Source: Clostridia bacterium
GTDB taxonomy: Bacteria > Bacillota > Clostridia > Lachnospirales > JAOARL01
Reading direction: 5' to 3'
Length of the DNA: 47,387 nucleotides
Assembly (NCBI GenBank): GCA_025210555.1
Contig: JAOARL010000028.1
Location: 1-47,387 of the forward strand
The position numbers were made by a program, and so were the translations under genes. Each line of letters opens with the position of its first letter. Position 1 is the stretch's first letter. The notes under the pieces are model-generated. The model did not search any database. It saw nothing but the letters and a program-made list of their open reading frames with translations, and was not told the DNA's origin. This document shows, piece by piece, positions 32,398 to 38,502 of the stretch.

Positions 32398-33753
32398 GTG
32401 GAAAAATTAACAGACATAGAATTAGAGAATAAAGATAAACTATGTAAGGGCTGCGATATAAGTAGAGATGCATATGGTAAAATTTCAAGAATATCTAATA
32501 GACTTTATAACGAGGCCCTTGAAGTCCTTAAAGAAGGAAATGTAAGTTTAGGGATCAAGAAATTAAATAAAAGTTTAGAATTTGATAAAACTAATGCAAA
32601 TGCAAGAGCTTTAATTGGTGTATGTTATTATGAAATTGGTGAAATATCTAAAGCTATAAAAGAATGGATAATAACATTAAATACAGATAGCAATAATGCA
32701 CAAGCACTTAGATACTTAAGAAGCATCGAAAAAAATTCTCATGAACTTGATAAGTGTGAAAAATCAATTAAGTATTATAATGAAGCACTAAAGTTTTTTG
32801 AACAAGGAAATGATGATATTGCAGTTTTAAAAATTAAGAAGGCAATATCTAGTAATCCAAAGTTAGTTCAGGCTAAAGTTTTAAAAGCTGTAATAGATTT
32901 AAGTGATAATCATATAGAGAAAGCTTTGGAAGAACTAGAAGAAGTTTTAAAAGTTGATAAGGGTAATGAGAAAGCGTTATATTATTATGACATGCTAAAG
33001 GGAAATTATGTTGAAAGCAAGCTAGAAGCTACGATGAATAGAAAGAGAGAAAATGATTTATTTAGCAAAGTAATGTTCAAACAAAATATAAAGAAGAATT
33101 TGTTAAATCCAAAAGTAGTTTTTTATATGGCGATAGGAGCGATATTAAGTGCAATCTTTATATTTGGATTTATAAATCCAGTGAAACAAGAACTTACACT
33201 TAGCAATATAAGAAAACTTGAAAGAGACACAAGAGAATATAAGGTCAGTATAGAACAAAAAGATACAGAAATAAGTCAAAATAAAGAATTAGTTGAAGAT
33301 CTAAATAAAGAAATAGAATTACTTAAGACAAAAATGACTGAAATGAGAAAAGTTGAAGGTGCTTACTTAGAATATAAAAATGATAATGATAATGAAGCAG
33401 CTTATATGCTTACAAAAGTAGATTATTCTAAATTAACAAGTGAGACTAAAGCTATGTATAATCATATAAAGAATAAGACTTTTGATAATGCTGTAAAATA
33501 TTATTATAATCTTGCAAAAGAGAAAAATTATGAAAAAGAAAATTATGAGTTAGCAATAAAAAACTTTACAAAAGTTATAGAGTTTGGGGAAAAAGGAAAC
33601 TATGCTGGATATGCTACTTATTTCACGGCGAGATCATATCAAAAGCTTGAAAATTACAAAAAGGCTATAGAGTATTTTGAAAAATATTTAGAAAAATACC
33701 CAAGTTCTAGTCTAAGAACGAATGCAAGAAATCATTTAAAGGCAATAAAATAA
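32398..33753 (+). CDS. TPR repeat protein with one membrane helix
   Basis: 451 residues. N-terminal TPR region (about 30-220; for example ALEVLKEGNVSLGIKKLNKSLEFDKTNANA), a membrane helix at about 240-262 (VVFYMAIGAILSAIFIFGF), a coiled coil (about 268-320) and a second C-terminal TPR block (about 370-450) ending with LEKYPSSSLRTNARNHLKAI, like YbgF/Tol-Pal-associated TPRs. The helix puts the two TPR blocks on opposite sides of the membrane. The start is GTG 32398, seven bases after AAAGGAGGG. It is probably a scaffold; no partner can be named. Confidence 0.87.
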   Translation: MEKLTDIELENKDKLCKGCDISRDAYGKISRISNRLYNEALEVLKEGNVSLGIKKLNKSLEFDKTNANARALIGVCYYEIGEISKAIKEWIITLNTDSNNAQALRYLRSIEKNSHELDKCEKSIKYYNEALKFFEQGNDDIAVLKIKKAISSNPKLVQAKVLKAVIDLSDNHIEKALEELEEVLKVDKGNEKALYYYDMLKGNYVESKLEATMNRKRENDLFSKVMFKQNIKKNLLNPKVVFYMAIGAILSAIFIFGFINPVKQELTLSNIRKLERDTREYKVSIEQKDTEISQNKELVEDLNKEIELLKTKMTEMRKVEGAYLEYKNDNDNEAAYMLTKVDYSKLTSETKAMYNHIKNKTFDNAVKYYYNLAKEKNYEKENYELAIKNFTKVIEFGEKGNYAGYATYFTARSYQKLENYKKAIEYFEKYLEKYPSSSLRTNARNHLKAIK

Positions 33754-33770
33754 TAATGAAATGCAGTTGA

Positions 33771-33812
33771 AATAGAGTTTGTTATTAAAAAATAACAGAT
33801 TCTATTTTTTTT
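33771..33812 (+). terminator. Strong terminator after the TPR gene
   Basis: A 16-pair stem (33771-33786 with 33791-33806, two G-U pairs) around loop AAAA, followed by TTTTTTTT. It isolates the Tad-like cluster from the TPR gene. Confidence 0.92.
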
Positions 33813-33824
33813 GTTGAGATTTTT

Positions 33825-35372
33825 TTGAAAAAAACTAGAATTTTTAGTAGAGGAGGTGAAAATATAGAAAAAATAAATGAGTGGCTTAAGGATATGGTTG
33901 AATATCAAAAGGAAGCTGACATTATATCTAAAGAGGTTAAAGATGCATTAAATAATTTTAGTGTTGGAGATAGCCAAAAAAAAGAAATTATTAAAACTTA
34001 CATACTAAATCTAATATATAAGGAAAATAAAATACAGGAAGTATATAAGTATTTTAATTTTGACAATGATGAACTAATGTCAGTTGAAGATAAATTTAAT
34101 TTGTTACTATATAGCTATTGTAAGAGGTATGGAGCTAATGCATTTATAAAAATTATAGAAAAGTATAAATTGAATTTGTTAAGAAAAAAAGGAAATGCTA
34201 ATTATTATTATATTGATGAAAGTGACATACTCTTGATATATGAAAAAGAAAAATTAGAATTAACAAAAGAAGATAAAGTAAAAATTTCAGTCCAAAAGAT
34301 TTATTCTAAATATAAAGGGTTAGGAGTAATAGATGAGCTACTAAGTTTGAATATAGATGGAATATCAGGTGGGGTGAGTAATAAGGTAGATGGTTTTGAA
34401 ACTGTATGGATCTTTTATAAGGGAAATATGATGCACCTTGAATTTTTGAAGTTTAGCAATGAGGAGTTAAAGAGAGTATGCGAAAATCTTTATAGATACA
34501 ATACATTAAAACAGTTATCTAAAAGAACAGGATATGTAATTAGTAAAATGAAAGATGGGTCAAGGGTTGTGGTTGCTAGACCGGAATTTGGAGAAGATTG
34601 GATGTTCTTTGTAAGAAAGTTTAACATAACGGATAAAAACATGTTAGATATAATTACTGGAAACGGCTCAGAAGATGTAGTTAAAATTTTAAGGTTTTTG
34701 GTTAAAGGAAGTAGGAATATAGCTATAACAGGACAGCAAGGTGTAGGTAAAACTACATTGTTAACATTGCTTGTTGAATATATATATGATATCTACCCTA
34801 TAAGAATTTTTGAAACAAATTTTGAATTAAATGCAAGAAAACTGTATAGCAATAAGAATATATGCTCTTTCCAAGAAACAGAAGAAATATGTATAAAAAA
34901 GGCTTTGGATTTTGGTAAGAAGACAGATGGAGCAGTAACTATAATTGGAGAGGTTTCAAATGATCAGGTGGCGGCACACATAATAGAAATTGCACAAGTA
35001 GCAAGCCGATTTACTATATTTACACATCATGCAAAAAAATTTGAACATTTAGTCATGTCACTTAGGAATTCACTTATTAATATAGGAAGTTTTAAAAATG
35101 AGGAAATAGCTAAGGAACAGGTTATAAGCATATTGGAATTTGATGTTCATATTGAAAAAGATTTTTATGGTAAGAGATATATAAGCAGAATAACAGAATG
35201 TATTAAGTTAGAAAATGACAGATATAGAGAAATTAATATTGTAGAAAATGAAGAAGGTGAATTTAAGTTTAAAAATGCTATTAGTAAAGAAAAAACAAAT
35301 GAGATGATGAGAGAAATGTCAAAGGAAGATAGAGATGAATTTAAATATTGGATTAAATCAATTTATCATTAG
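33825..35372 (+). CDS. CpaF/TadA-like secretion ATPase
   Basis: Up to 515 residues. Walker A is GQQGVGKTT (303-311). The Walker B region reads AVTIIGEVSNDQ (GEVS at 375-378), followed by FTHHAKKFEHLVMSLRNSL, where CpaF proteins have the histidine-box TTIHANSP...RL. The N-terminal domain is divergent. The catalytic glutamate (E376) is kept, but the arginine that usually follows in GEVR is Ser378. The open frame begins at TTG 33825, which has no ribosome site. A perfect AGGAGGTG (33851-33858) instead precedes an in-frame ATA at 33864, which may be the true, unusual start (502 residues). It overlaps the next gene by 38 bases. Predicted motor of a Tad/type II-like machine. Confidence 0.88.
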   Translation: MKKTRIFSRGGENIEKINEWLKDMVEYQKEADIISKEVKDALNNFSVGDSQKKEIIKTYILNLIYKENKIQEVYKYFNFDNDELMSVEDKFNLLLYSYCKRYGANAFIKIIEKYKLNLLRKKGNANYYYIDESDILLIYEKEKLELTKEDKVKISVQKIYSKYKGLGVIDELLSLNIDGISGGVSNKVDGFETVWIFYKGNMMHLEFLKFSNEELKRVCENLYRYNTLKQLSKRTGYVISKMKDGSRVVVARPEFGEDWMFFVRKFNITDKNMLDIITGNGSEDVVKILRFLVKGSRNIAITGQQGVGKTTLLTLLVEYIYDIYPIRIFETNFELNARKLYSNKNICSFQETEEICIKKALDFGKKTDGAVTIIGEVSNDQVAAHIIEIAQVASRFTIFTHHAKKFEHLVMSLRNSLINIGSFKNEEIAKEQVISILEFDVHIEKDFYGKRYISRITECIKLENDRYREINIVENEEGEFKFKNAISKEKTNEMMREMSKEDRDEFKYWIKSIYH

Positions 35373-36519
35373 TTTTACTGGGCTTATTTTCATATTAGAA
35401 ATATTGAAAAACATGATAGCAAGTGAACAAAAAAGTAAAAAATATTTGAAGGTACTATTAGAAACTCCAAATTACATAAAAAAGGTGAAGCATAAATATT
35501 ATTACAAACATATAATAGATGATGATGAAGTTGCAGAAATAAACAACAATCAAACTTTAAACTTTATTAAGGAAATAATATATTTATCAAAAGAGTATGG
35601 TGATATAAAAGAGAATGGTAAGTCAATTTTTATAAGTAATCTTAACCTAATGATTGAGTATATGAAAATGGAAGAGTTTAAATATAAGCTTAGAAAATAT
35701 TTTTTCAAAGGGGCAAATTGGGCTTTGGTGTTACCAATAATAATGTTACTACCAAGCAAAGGAATAGTTACGGGGATTTTTCCAGAATTAGATGAATATT
35801 TTAGTAGGGCTGAGTATTATTCAAGTGTTTTGTTGTTCTTTATAATTACATATTTTGTTTTTTTGATGGTAAACAATGTGGTTATGTTAAATATTAATAG
35901 AACTATTGTAAGCGTTAATTATATATTAGTTTTTTTTGCAATAATATTATTAAGAAATATAAGTTTAATAATATTGGCATTAATTGTTGGTATAATATAC
36001 ATTAAATGCTTAAAAGCATATAAGAAAAAAAGTTATGAAGAGCAGAAGAATAATGAAGTTTTTAAAATGAATATAGTTATAGATATTTTAAAAAATTACA
36101 CTAATATTGGTGTTAGAGATTTTAGTATTTGGGCTATTAAATTTTGTGAAATAGACAGCAATAAATTTGAAAAATTTGTTAGTAATTATGAAAGCGGAAG
36201 TGTAAGAGAATTAGATAATTTAATTAATAGTATAGATAACATTGAACTTAAAGAAATGCTAGAAGCATTTAGAAATATTGAAAATGGAATGGATGTTAAA
36301 ACGGCATTTGAATATATTGAGATGGAAAGAGAATTTATAAAAACAACTAAAAAAAATAGAGATGATCTATATATAAAGGCTATTAAAATGTTTATTGAAA
36401 TTGTTGGAGTTATTCCATTTTATGTTCTCGTTATAATAAATATAGTTTTACCTATAGTTGTAATGGGAATAAAAGAATTAGAAGAATTAATGGATGTATT
36501 AAAAGGAGGTGTAATGTGA
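35335..36519 (+). CDS. TadB/TadC-like membrane protein
   Basis: 394 residues. Membrane helices at about 9-25, 130-150, 165-190, 193-225 and 350-378. The cytoplasmic part between the later helices (VIDILKNYTNIGVRDFSIWA...LEAFRNIENGMDVKTAFEYIE) resembles the type II secretion F domain of TadB/TadC. Overlap with the ATPase gene and the order ATPase-then-membrane-protein support this. AAAGGAAG lies six bases before the ATG although the start is inside the preceding gene. Only one such protein is present; classical Tad loci have both TadB and TadC. Confidence 0.78.
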   Translation: MNLNIGLNQFIISFTGLIFILEILKNMIASEQKSKKYLKVLLETPNYIKKVKHKYYYKHIIDDDEVAEINNNQTLNFIKEIIYLSKEYGDIKENGKSIFISNLNLMIEYMKMEEFKYKLRKYFFKGANWALVLPIIMLLPSKGIVTGIFPELDEYFSRAEYYSSVLLFFIITYFVFLMVNNVVMLNINRTIVSVNYILVFFAIILLRNISLIILALIVGIIYIKCLKAYKKKSYEEQKNNEVFKMNIVIDILKNYTNIGVRDFSIWAIKFCEIDSNKFEKFVSNYESGSVRELDNLINSIDNIELKEMLEAFRNIENGMDVKTAFEYIEMEREFIKTTKKNRDDLYIKAIKMFIEIVGVIPFYVLVIINIVLPIVVMGIKELEELMDVLKGGVM

Positions 36520-36929
36520 GTGAAAATTTGCAAAAGGTAATATTTATGGGAGCTAGTATTTTGATGACAGTTGCCATAATTGCAGTCGGTATGAGGGTTT
36601 TTTCAACTGCCAATAGAATTGTTGAAGATTCTGAACAGGAAATGGTTAAAATGCATATAGACTTATCAAATAGTAAATTTGACACATATGACAATTCTAA
36701 ATGCAAAGGATATGAAGTGCTGAATGTTATAAAGATGATAAAAGATGAAGATATAATTGTTAAAGTTGAAACCACAGAAGGTGTAGAAGTTACTTATGAT
36801 AAAGATAACGAATATAGCATAGTAAGTGAACAAGATAATAATTACATAAATCCATTAGGTAATTTTGCATCTAATATAATATATAATGGCAATGATGTCG
36901 TGTCAGAATTGATATTTGAACAAATATAA
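36516..36929 (+). CDS. Small protein with N-terminal helix, pilin-like position
   Basis: 137 residues. A hydrophobic segment at about 7-28 (VIFMGASILMTVAIIAVGMRVF) directly after a short polar start, then a polar domain. The layout resembles pseudopilins, but no classical prepilin cleavage site (G then F-T-L-I-E) is seen. The start is GTG 36516, overlapping the previous stop (GTGA) behind AAAGGAGGTG. Its stop overlaps the next start (TAATG). Probably a subunit or assembly factor of the cluster. Confidence 0.72.
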   Translation: MSENLQKVIFMGASILMTVAIIAVGMRVFSTANRIVEDSEQEMVKMHIDLSNSKFDTYDNSKCKGYEVLNVIKMIKDEDIIVKVETTEGVEVTYDKDNEYSIVSEQDNNYINPLGNFASNIIYNGNDVVSELIFEQI

Positions 36930-37336
36930 TGAATGATATTGTAGGAAATTTATTTTCTGTGTTTTTTCTAACTATAGTATATTTAGTAATCGTAACATTC
37001 CCCATAAAACAATACATGTTTTTAGAAAAAACTAGATATTTAAATTTTGAAATAAAATCCATTGTAGACGAAGCTGTTGTTACAGGTAATTTAAATGAAA
37101 GAAAAATAAGTGTCTTAAAGAAGAAGATAAATAAAATGGATATAAACGGGAAAATAAAAATAATATATTATAAAAAAAGAATTTTGTATAATGAAAATAA
37201 TAATTCGTATAGTGTTTTGTATGAATATAGTGATAATATTGAGAATATGAATAAAGGCGATAAAATATATATGACTTTTGAAGGGAAAAAGCACTATATA
37301 AAATACGGAGGATATATATTAAATGAGTATAAGTAA
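36929..37336 (+). CDS. Small protein with N-terminal helix, TadE-like position
   Basis: 135 residues. A hydrophobic segment at about 9-25 (SVFFLTIVYLVIVTFPI) is followed by a basic and strand-rich external domain (KIKIIYYKKRILYNENNNSYSVLYEYS). The family is not recognised; size, topology and place resemble the minor pilins TadE/TadF. The ATG overlaps the previous stop by one base and the 3' end overlaps the next gene by 14 bases, so all cluster genes are coupled. Confidence 0.7.
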   Translation: MNDIVGNLFSVFFLTIVYLVIVTFPIKQYMFLEKTRYLNFEIKSIVDEAVVTGNLNERKISVLKKKINKMDINGKIKIIYYKKRILYNENNNSYSVLYEYSDNIENMNKGDKIYMTFEGKKHYIKYGGYILNEYK

Positions 37337-37664
37337 AAGTACAATTGTGTTAACAATTGTGCTTTTTTCTTCTATTTTGCAATTAGAAGTTAAAAGTATA
37401 AAAAATTTAAGCGGAGTATATGAAGCAAGTTTTATTGAAGGAAAAGAAAAAATGAATATCAGCAGTGAATACCTAACTATAATAGAGCCAGTTGGAATTG
37501 AAGAATTAGAACTCCTATCAGAAAATAAAATTGTTGAAAAGATGGAATTATATAAATCTAATTATAAGTTTGGATATATTTTAAATAATAAGGGGAAATA
37601 TATTATATATTTGAATAAATATGCAAGGAGCAGATTTGATATAAAAAAATGTGAGAATAGATAA
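37323..37664 (+). CDS. Small protein with signal-like N-terminus, last gene of the Tad-like cluster
   Basis: 113 residues. Residues about 6-22 (STIVLTIVLFSSILQLE) form a signal peptide or anchor; the remainder is a small domain of unknown fold (YLTIIEPVGIEELELLSENKIVEKMELY). GGAGG precedes the ATG at 11 bases. The first codons contain a strong terminator-like hairpin (37335-37368), so expression may be attenuated, or the cluster transcript may end here and this ORF may be little expressed. Confidence 0.6.
   Translation: MSISKSTIVLTIVLFSSILQLEVKSIKNLSGVYEASFIEGKEKMNISSEYLTIIEPVGIEELELLSENKIVEKMELYKSNYKFGYILNNKGKYIIYLNKYARSRFDIKKCENR
37335..37368 (+). terminator. Terminator-like hairpin inside a coding region
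   Basis: AAAAGTACAATTGT-GTTA-ACAATTGTGCTTTT, a 14-pair stem with one U-G pair, followed by TTTTTT in total. It covers codons 5-15 of the last cluster gene. Confidence 0.7.
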
Positions 37665-37679: not shown

Positions 37680-37707
37680 TTAAGAATAGTAGAGAAAGGT
37701 GATAATT

Positions 37708-38502
37708 ATGGATAAATTCAAGAAAATTTTAGTAATGTTTTTGGGAATGTTGATGTTTAATGTATTTTGGGCAAGTTTGATAACTTTTATATTTAAAAGA
37801 TTTTTCTTTTTTGAAAGTATAGATGATATTGGTGGGAACTATATATTTATATTACTTATGACGTTATTAAGTGTTATATATATTAATATACTTAAAGTTG
37901 ATAAGTGTAAACCAGATTTACATAAGATATTGCACACATTAATGGGAGTTCTTCTAGGAATGACAACCCTTATAGTTGTAGGAACGTTGAACTTATCTAA
38001 CTTTGACTTTTTTGGAATTGATGTTTATTCAAGTTTTGAAATAATATTATCGCTTATAATAACATTAATTTTTTCAGTTGCTTCAGCCTTTGCAGAGGAA
38101 TTAATTTTTAGAGGATATATGCAGCAAAAAATGAGCGAATACTTAATAAAAGAGGGCGCGATATTTATAAGCTCAATATTTATGGCTCTTTATATGTATA
38201 GTTTAGGATATGGATATTTATTAAGTATAGCATTCTTATTTATAAGTATAATGCTTGGATATATATATGAAGTAACTAACACAATATTTGTGTCTTTTGG
38301 ATATAATTTAATGATAAAATTTGGATTTTTATCATTAATAAGAGTTTTTAAATATAAGTACGTTATTTTACCTGGAATTTTAAATTATAAAATGGGAATA
38401 GATAACGGAGTTATAATATTAATTTCTATGCATATATTAATAGTTGTGACATTGATATTTATCGAAAAGAAACATGTAATAAAAAAATTTTTTGAGGATT
38501 AA
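37708..38502 (+). CDS. CPBP-fold membrane protein lacking catalytic histidines
   Basis: 264 residues with about seven to eight membrane helices. Motif 1 of CPBP (CAAX prenyl protease 2-like/Abi) intramembrane proteases is intact: E130-E131-L-I-F-R135. Motif 2, normally F-x-x-x-H, reads F158-M-A-L-Y162. Motif 3, normally H-x-x-x-N, reads S196-F-G-Y-N200. Both metal-ligand histidines are thus absent, so protease activity is doubtful. I chose ATG 37708 (AAAGGTGAT upstream) over GTG 37699. It follows the Tad-like cluster and has its own promoter and terminator. Confidence 0.82.
   Translation: MDKFKKILVMFLGMLMFNVFWASLITFIFKRFFFFESIDDIGGNYIFILLMTLLSVIYINILKVDKCKPDLHKILHTLMGVLLGMTTLIVVGTLNLSNFDFFGIDVYSSFEIILSLIITLIFSVASAFAEELIFRGYMQQKMSEYLIKEGAIFISSIFMALYMYSLGYGYLLSIAFLFISIMLGYIYEVTNTIFVSFGYNLMIKFGFLSLIRVFKYKYVILPGILNYKMGIDNGVIILISMHILIVVTLIFIEKKHVIKKFFED

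Follow-up and report, generated by a model that had tools for sequence, protein, structure and literature searches.

What kind of machine is encoded by five overlapping genes for a CpaF-like ATPase, a membrane protein and three small proteins that begin with a hydrophobic segment? The cluster lies in a stretch of 47,387 nucleotides from a Clostridia bacterium (contig JAOARL010000028.1), the whole of which is called the window here. The original prediction, made from the letters of the DNA, had described a reduced or distinct machine for pilus or surface-protein assembly. Cleavage by a prepilin peptidase is regarded as a defining step in the assembly of type IV filaments, and pilin finders look for the cleavage site.

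Layout of the cluster and its flanks

The five overlapping genes were found as predicted, as five open reading frames on the + strand, named W1 to W5, with an overlap at each junction (38, 4, 1 and 14 bases for W1/W2, W2/W3, W3/W4 and W4/W5, respectively). The features are as follows:

33769..33808, + strand: terminator-like hairpin and T run, between the upstream TPR gene and W1
33825..35372, + strand: W1, CpaF/TadA-like motor ATPase
35335..36519, + strand: W2, predicted compact TadB-TadC fusion, membrane platform
36516..36929, + strand: W3, leaderless pilin-like protein, probable main subunit
36929..37336, + strand: W4, c5-type small protein, probable minor subunit
37323..37664, + strand: W5, small protein with an N-terminal hydrophobic segment, in the place of c6

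The upstream hairpin has a predicted RNA fold of -19.4 kcal/mol (z -4.4 against shuffles) and is absent from a consensus terminator scan, which requires three G-C pairs. Since a stable hairpin and T run separate the TPR gene from the cluster, W1 to W5 probably form a unit of their own. The gene directly upstream, beyond the hairpin (32398-33753), encodes a TPR protein with one central membrane segment; TPR proteins (TadD) are found alongside Tad loci elsewhere. Directly downstream (37699-38502) lies a gene for a CPBP/Rce1-like membrane protease with weak likeness to myxosortase-type enzymes.

The cluster is AT-rich, with a GC content of 0.25 vs 0.29 for the window, and has no close relatives suited to measuring selection. 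Model scans detected no Flp-like gene, peptidase gene or GspG-like match within it. In agreement with the original prediction, neither a prepilin peptidase nor TadZ was found among the scanned proteins next to the cluster. A phage origin was considered and is unsupported, the phage records yielding a single weak match.

The W1 ATPase belongs to a separate lineage

W1 matched a profile of the lineage ATPases, built without the window, at E 1.8e-177, and matched the TadA, VirB11 and T2SSE models weakly, far under their cut-offs. W2 to W5 matched no Pfam or NCBIfam model of note. When solved structures were searched with the ATPase family profile, CpaF was the sole find at E 1e-5 or better (E 5.5e-15), and no GspE-type motor was matched. 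The P-loop of W1 (GQQGVGKTT) is intact.

The residues singled out in CpaF are K287, E312, E357, H382, R223, R347 and R359, the last in the GEVR motif (PMC11300603). By manual reading of the alignment, five have counterparts in W1 (K287=K309, E312=E330, E357=E376, H382=H402 and R223=R247), R347 stands opposite a gap, and R359 is replaced by Ala or Ser throughout the lineage. All of the motor features of type IV filament ATPases, namely P-loop, Asp box, Walker B and His box, are kept. The GEVS motif noted in the original prediction is indeed present, but it is no peculiarity of the window, as relatives carry mostly GEVA and also GEIA; because the arginine is replaced lineage-wide, GEVS is a lineage trait and no sign of reduction.

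In a quick tree with long branches that also held canonical TadA and the PilB-like and PilT-like ATPases of the genome, the lineage formed one clade (support 99), joined by ATPases of the type found on contig C22 of the same genome (support 96), the two together being sister to the sampled TadA clade. Within this quick tree, the sister of W1 was the ATPase of locus L039 (support 96), with similar branch lengths of 0.85 and 0.87. Decay of the ATPase in relatives, which the original prediction had listed as counting against it, was not observed.

The sole good Shine-Dalgarno sequence near the start of W1, AGGAGGTG at 33851-33858, precedes an ATA codon (33864), and none precedes the listed TTG (33825) or the ATG at 33894. 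Translation therefore probably starts near 33864, downstream of the listed TTG. The ATA may be a rare start codon, a sign of weak expression or a sequencing error.

A conserved gene order in Clostridia and Paenibacillaceae

Among 344 genomes sampled across the order to which the window belongs, 34, its own genome included, had W1 relatives at E 1e-30 or better. Public genome contigs contain them in at least 452 stretches, the best of which come mostly from Paenibacillus and Clostridia. Relatives were also found on plasmids of Paenibacillus, Lysinibacillus, Butyrivibrio and others. The neighbourhoods of 89 lineage loci were read, and fractions were taken from the testable ones (84 for the upstream genes, 81 for the core). 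The usual order is a kinase, a CpaB-like SAF protein, a receiver-like protein, a MinD/TadZ-like protein, the ATPase, a membrane protein of about 690 aa, one to six pilin-like proteins, and the small proteins c5 and c6. Just upstream of the ATPase, the CpaB-like SAF and MinD/TadZ-like genes were each found in 83 of the 84 testable relatives, and the kinase gene in 39 of 84. Of the 81 loci of sufficient length, 71 had the whole core from the ATPase to c6 in the usual order; a conserved five-gene order was what the original prediction had named as support. Judged by homology and gene order, the cluster thus appears to be the conserved core of a divergent machine of the Tad type (type IVc), found in Clostridia and Paenibacillaceae.

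In searches of Pfam, NCBIfam and PDB sequences, the ATPase was the sole protein of the cluster to receive a name; in relatives, names were also obtained for the CpaB-like and MinD-like genes, with the CpaB model itself reaching E 1e-9 on one relative, under its cut-off. The expectation that annotation would leave these genes as hypotheticals holds for the platform and all of the small proteins, which RefSeq calls "hypothetical protein" in relatives, but not for the ATPase, usually named TadA/CpaF; the SAF protein is named as well. The platform and the small proteins belong to no family model, and the lineage is essentially unstudied: a literature search, whose scope left out most subscription journals, found no paper on it.

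In five of the loci (L188, L189, L190, L183 and L185), some of them plasmid-borne, genes for an SLH or stalk-domain protein and a large DUF5704 protein come next. Such proteins are possible surface partners of a filament. In a regular-expression survey, S-layer proteins were found downstream in 2 of 55 cases. A search for DUF5704 gave no hit in the genome of the window and none in the control genomes either, so that its negative result carries no weight.

W2 as a compacted TadB-TadC fusion

The original prediction had taken W2 for a protein with a lone F domain and had counted no second TadB/C in the cluster; the comparisons did not uphold this description. W2 (394 aa) matched the lineage platform profile, built without the window, at E 4.2e-35, full-length relatives measuring about 690 aa. 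In hhalign comparisons it aligned with both halves of this family, with probabilities of 97.6 for the N-terminal and 98.2 for the C-terminal part. In profile-profile comparisons, the N-terminal half of the 690-aa family matched TadB of canonical Tad loci from the same order (probability 92, E 5e-7) and the C-terminal half matched TadC of related two-gene loci (probability 96-98), the match of the latter half to canonical TadC alone not being significant. No match to the platform was obtained with the Pfam T2SSF model.

Because W2 aligns with both halves, the supposed single F domain is best described as a shortened TadB-TadC fusion containing both the TadB and the TadC part. The TadB half comes first and the TadC half second, which suggests a fusion of neighbouring bacterial genes and not the archaeal state. 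An ancestral, archaeal-like platform was accordingly judged less likely.

Pilin-like proteins that begin with a membrane helix

W3 matched the pilin-like family profile, built without the window, at E 3.9e-27, and starts with GTG, six bases after GGAGG. W4 matched the c5 profile, likewise built without the window, at E 1.1e-4, and keeps four nearly invariant c5 positions (P22, G53, G110 and D111). In the AlphaFold2 models, W3 (pLDDT 92.9) has a helix at residues 3-53 followed by a small alpha/beta domain, and W4 (pLDDT 95.7) a helix at residues 2-52 and a beta sheet. In both models a helix of about 50 residues thus leads into a small globular domain, a predicted architecture like that of type IV pilins. 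Searches of the two models against the PDB with Foldseek and VIA-align gave weak, unrelated matches and no confident pilin, and the pilin fold of W3 and W4 is therefore unproven. No signal was obtained when W5 was compared with c6 by HMM, MAFFT and hhalign; its position and the gene order would make W5 the c6 counterpart. Within its first codons (37335-37366) lies a terminator-like hairpin of 14 pairs followed by a T run, so that W5 may be transcribed less than the other genes, unless the palindrome is due to chance.

As the original prediction had stated, no prepilin cleavage site is recognisable in W3, W4 or W5. The same holds across the lineage, where a class III-like cleavage motif was found in 1 of 235 pilin-like proteins (200 of one family and 35 of a second). 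In these proteins the hydrophobic stretch begins at about residue 4, after a common Met-Glu-Asn-Ala-Ser-Lys-Ala-Leu. The annotated starts hold up: a Shine-Dalgarno sequence lies ahead of 149 of 198 of them, whereas for internal ATGs the figure is 152 of 4343, and the open part of the frame ahead of the starts has a median length of only five codons. W3 has no room for a leader, and the missing cleavage site is a trait of the lineage rather than a mark of reduction.

Reduction of the locus and other pilus systems in the genome

Unlike its relatives, the window locus has no CpaB-like, TadZ/MinD-like or kinase gene, and it is the most reduced member of the lineage among the loci examined. Together with the profile matches of W1 to W4, this leaves the core of the machine without any upstream accessory genes. 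A middle stage is found in the same order, where locus L181 keeps the MinD-like gene but lacks adjacent SAF, receiver-like and kinase genes. The original wording, reduced or distinct, therefore stands in both of its parts, the missing accessory genes accounting for the first, and the ATPase lineage sister to canonical TadA, with its platform and small proteins outside any family model, for the second. What does not stand is the use of GEVS, the missing cleavage site and a lone F domain as signs of reduction.

The genome (1.56 Mb in 38 contigs) contains further pilus loci. A fuller and more divergent locus of the same kind lies on contig C22 (L010, 4800-14700); it has genes of the MinD-like and SAF-like kinds, encodes TadB and TadC as separate proteins, and includes small proteins in which a membrane helix likewise comes first. 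Downstream of it are encoded an S-layer homology protein and a secreted-looking protein of 945 aa. Contig C10 carries a canonical Tad-type locus (L051, 400-9400) with only one T2SSF match, several TadE/F-like proteins, one kinase-like protein and one SAF protein, while a type IVa-like pilus lies on contig C7 and a PilT-like ATPase on contig C36. Lineage profiles detected no further MinD-like/SAF set, the match on contig C32 being a lone MinD-like protein. The original prediction had regarded a tad locus elsewhere, with the window genes as its duplicates, as evidence against it. Fuller loci do exist, but W1 falls in another clade and the cluster has its own platform and subunits, so that the window genes are not what is left of the C22 or C10 loci, nor duplicates of them.

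The genome has one A24 peptidase, on contig C29, which adjoins no pilus locus. An A24 peptidase was found in 27 of 28 lineage-bearing genomes, and a canonical platform that would need the peptidase in 14 of 15 checked. With both present nearly everywhere, the occurrence of the enzyme cannot tell whether the lineage subunits are processed.

Proposed mechanism and alternative explanations

The cluster is probably a reduced, working and divergent type IVc filament machine with a fused platform and unprocessed subunits. The W1 ATPase, presumably as a hexamer in the cytoplasm, would hydrolyse ATP and move the W2 platform, which, with TadB and TadC in one chain, would lift small subunits out of the membrane into a thin filament. 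W3 would be the main subunit, and W4 and W5 minor or initiating ones, all held in the membrane by an N-terminal helix that starts at the very beginning of the protein. Since the helix begins there, no leader would have to be removed and a prepilin peptidase would be unneeded for assembly. The proposal builds on what was computed for the cluster and its lineage (the homology of W1 to W4, gene order, fusion, absence of leaders, catalytic residues and loss of accessory genes). From this lineage, known here through its genes, we infer the filament, its role at the surface and the absence of processing. Against the last point, the A24 peptidase of this genome and of nearly all relatives could act in trans.

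The features that make the locus small could also be those of a remnant that lost its upstream half so recently that the frames are still open. The missing MinD-like and SAF genes would fit such decay, as would W2 and W5, much shorter than in relatives, the very low GC content, and an ATA instead of a usual start codon after the W1 Shine-Dalgarno sequence. Nevertheless, five frames remain open with their overlaps retained, W1 keeps its catalytic residues on a branch like that of its sister, and W4 retains the nearly invariant c5 positions. Moreover, the genome of L181 has separately lost most accessory genes while keeping the core, and a decaying remnant is on balance unlikely.

A less probable reading still, and a distinctly doubtful one, is a type II-like secretion piston, in which a short endopilus would push proteins across the wall instead of forming a surface filament. 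Subunits with globular domains, unlike Flp pilins, are compatible with it, and large secreted proteins (with SLH, DUF5704, Ig or LRR domains) are often encoded downstream of related loci; the window, however, has no large secreted neighbour, W1 is closest to CpaF and not to GspE, and neither secretin nor GspL/M/G-type genes were seen in the loci. Least probable of all, and very unlikely, is a module whose proteins depend on accessory proteins of the C22 or C10 loci. MinD-like and SAF-like proteins could come from the former and a SAF protein from the latter, the genome having no other accessory set, but the W1 and C22 ATPases lie in separate clades, and platform and subunits are particular to each locus.

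The filament machine with unprocessed subunits may have a wider bearing. It is conceivable, at somewhat less than an even chance, that a major branch of type IV filaments never processes its subunits, having neither leader nor peptidase and a fused platform, and that the window holds its minimal form, in which a motor, a platform and two or three subunits suffice. With the lineage in many Paenibacillus and gut Clostridia, and hundreds of pilin-like proteins lacking the site, the cleavage rule would become directly testable; the missing site would also account for these loci having escaped notice. A fused platform would fix the TadB:TadC ratio at 1:1, which bears on rotary vs gyratory motor models, and the five-gene form would lend itself to reconstruction as a minimal machine.

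Comparison with known systems

Type II secretion differs from the machine described here, in which no GspE-type motor and no GspG-type pseudopilins were found. The cluster shares with the type IV filament superfamily a T2SSE/CpaF-kind motor and a T2SSF/TadB/TadC-kind membrane platform, but its subunits, unlike those of superfamily members, have no class III signal peptide or prepilin cleavage site. Archaeal type IV pili have a two-domain platform (PMC6668835), and two F-type domains in one chain are a likeness to the present case, in which, by contrast, TadB is followed by TadC. The reduced Tad systems of Bifidobacterium breve and Micrococcus luteus (PMC6916266) are also few-gene machines of one-membrane bacteria; they possess two platform proteins, cleavable pilins, a prepilin peptidase, and TadZ or TadG.

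Imam et al. (2011; PMC3244431, group iii) reported that a few tad-like loci of clostridia have no prepilin motif at all. Compared by their description, those loci resemble the present lineage in being clostridial and lacking a recognisable prepilin, and some of the named species belong to lineage-bearing groups. They have tadV and a tadA that is not divergent, and no fused platform or subunit family was described for them.

With Tad or type IVc systems in general, the cluster shares a CpaF-like motor, relatives of TadB and TadC, and small pilin-like subunits, to which relatives of the window add CpaB-like and TadZ/MinD-like genes. It departs from them in the predicted fusion of TadB and TadC, in GEVA or GEVS in place of GEVR, in an ATPase that forms a separate sister lineage in the quick tree, in leaderless subunits with a globular domain, and in a locus without a prepilin peptidase (Flp and TadV being absent).
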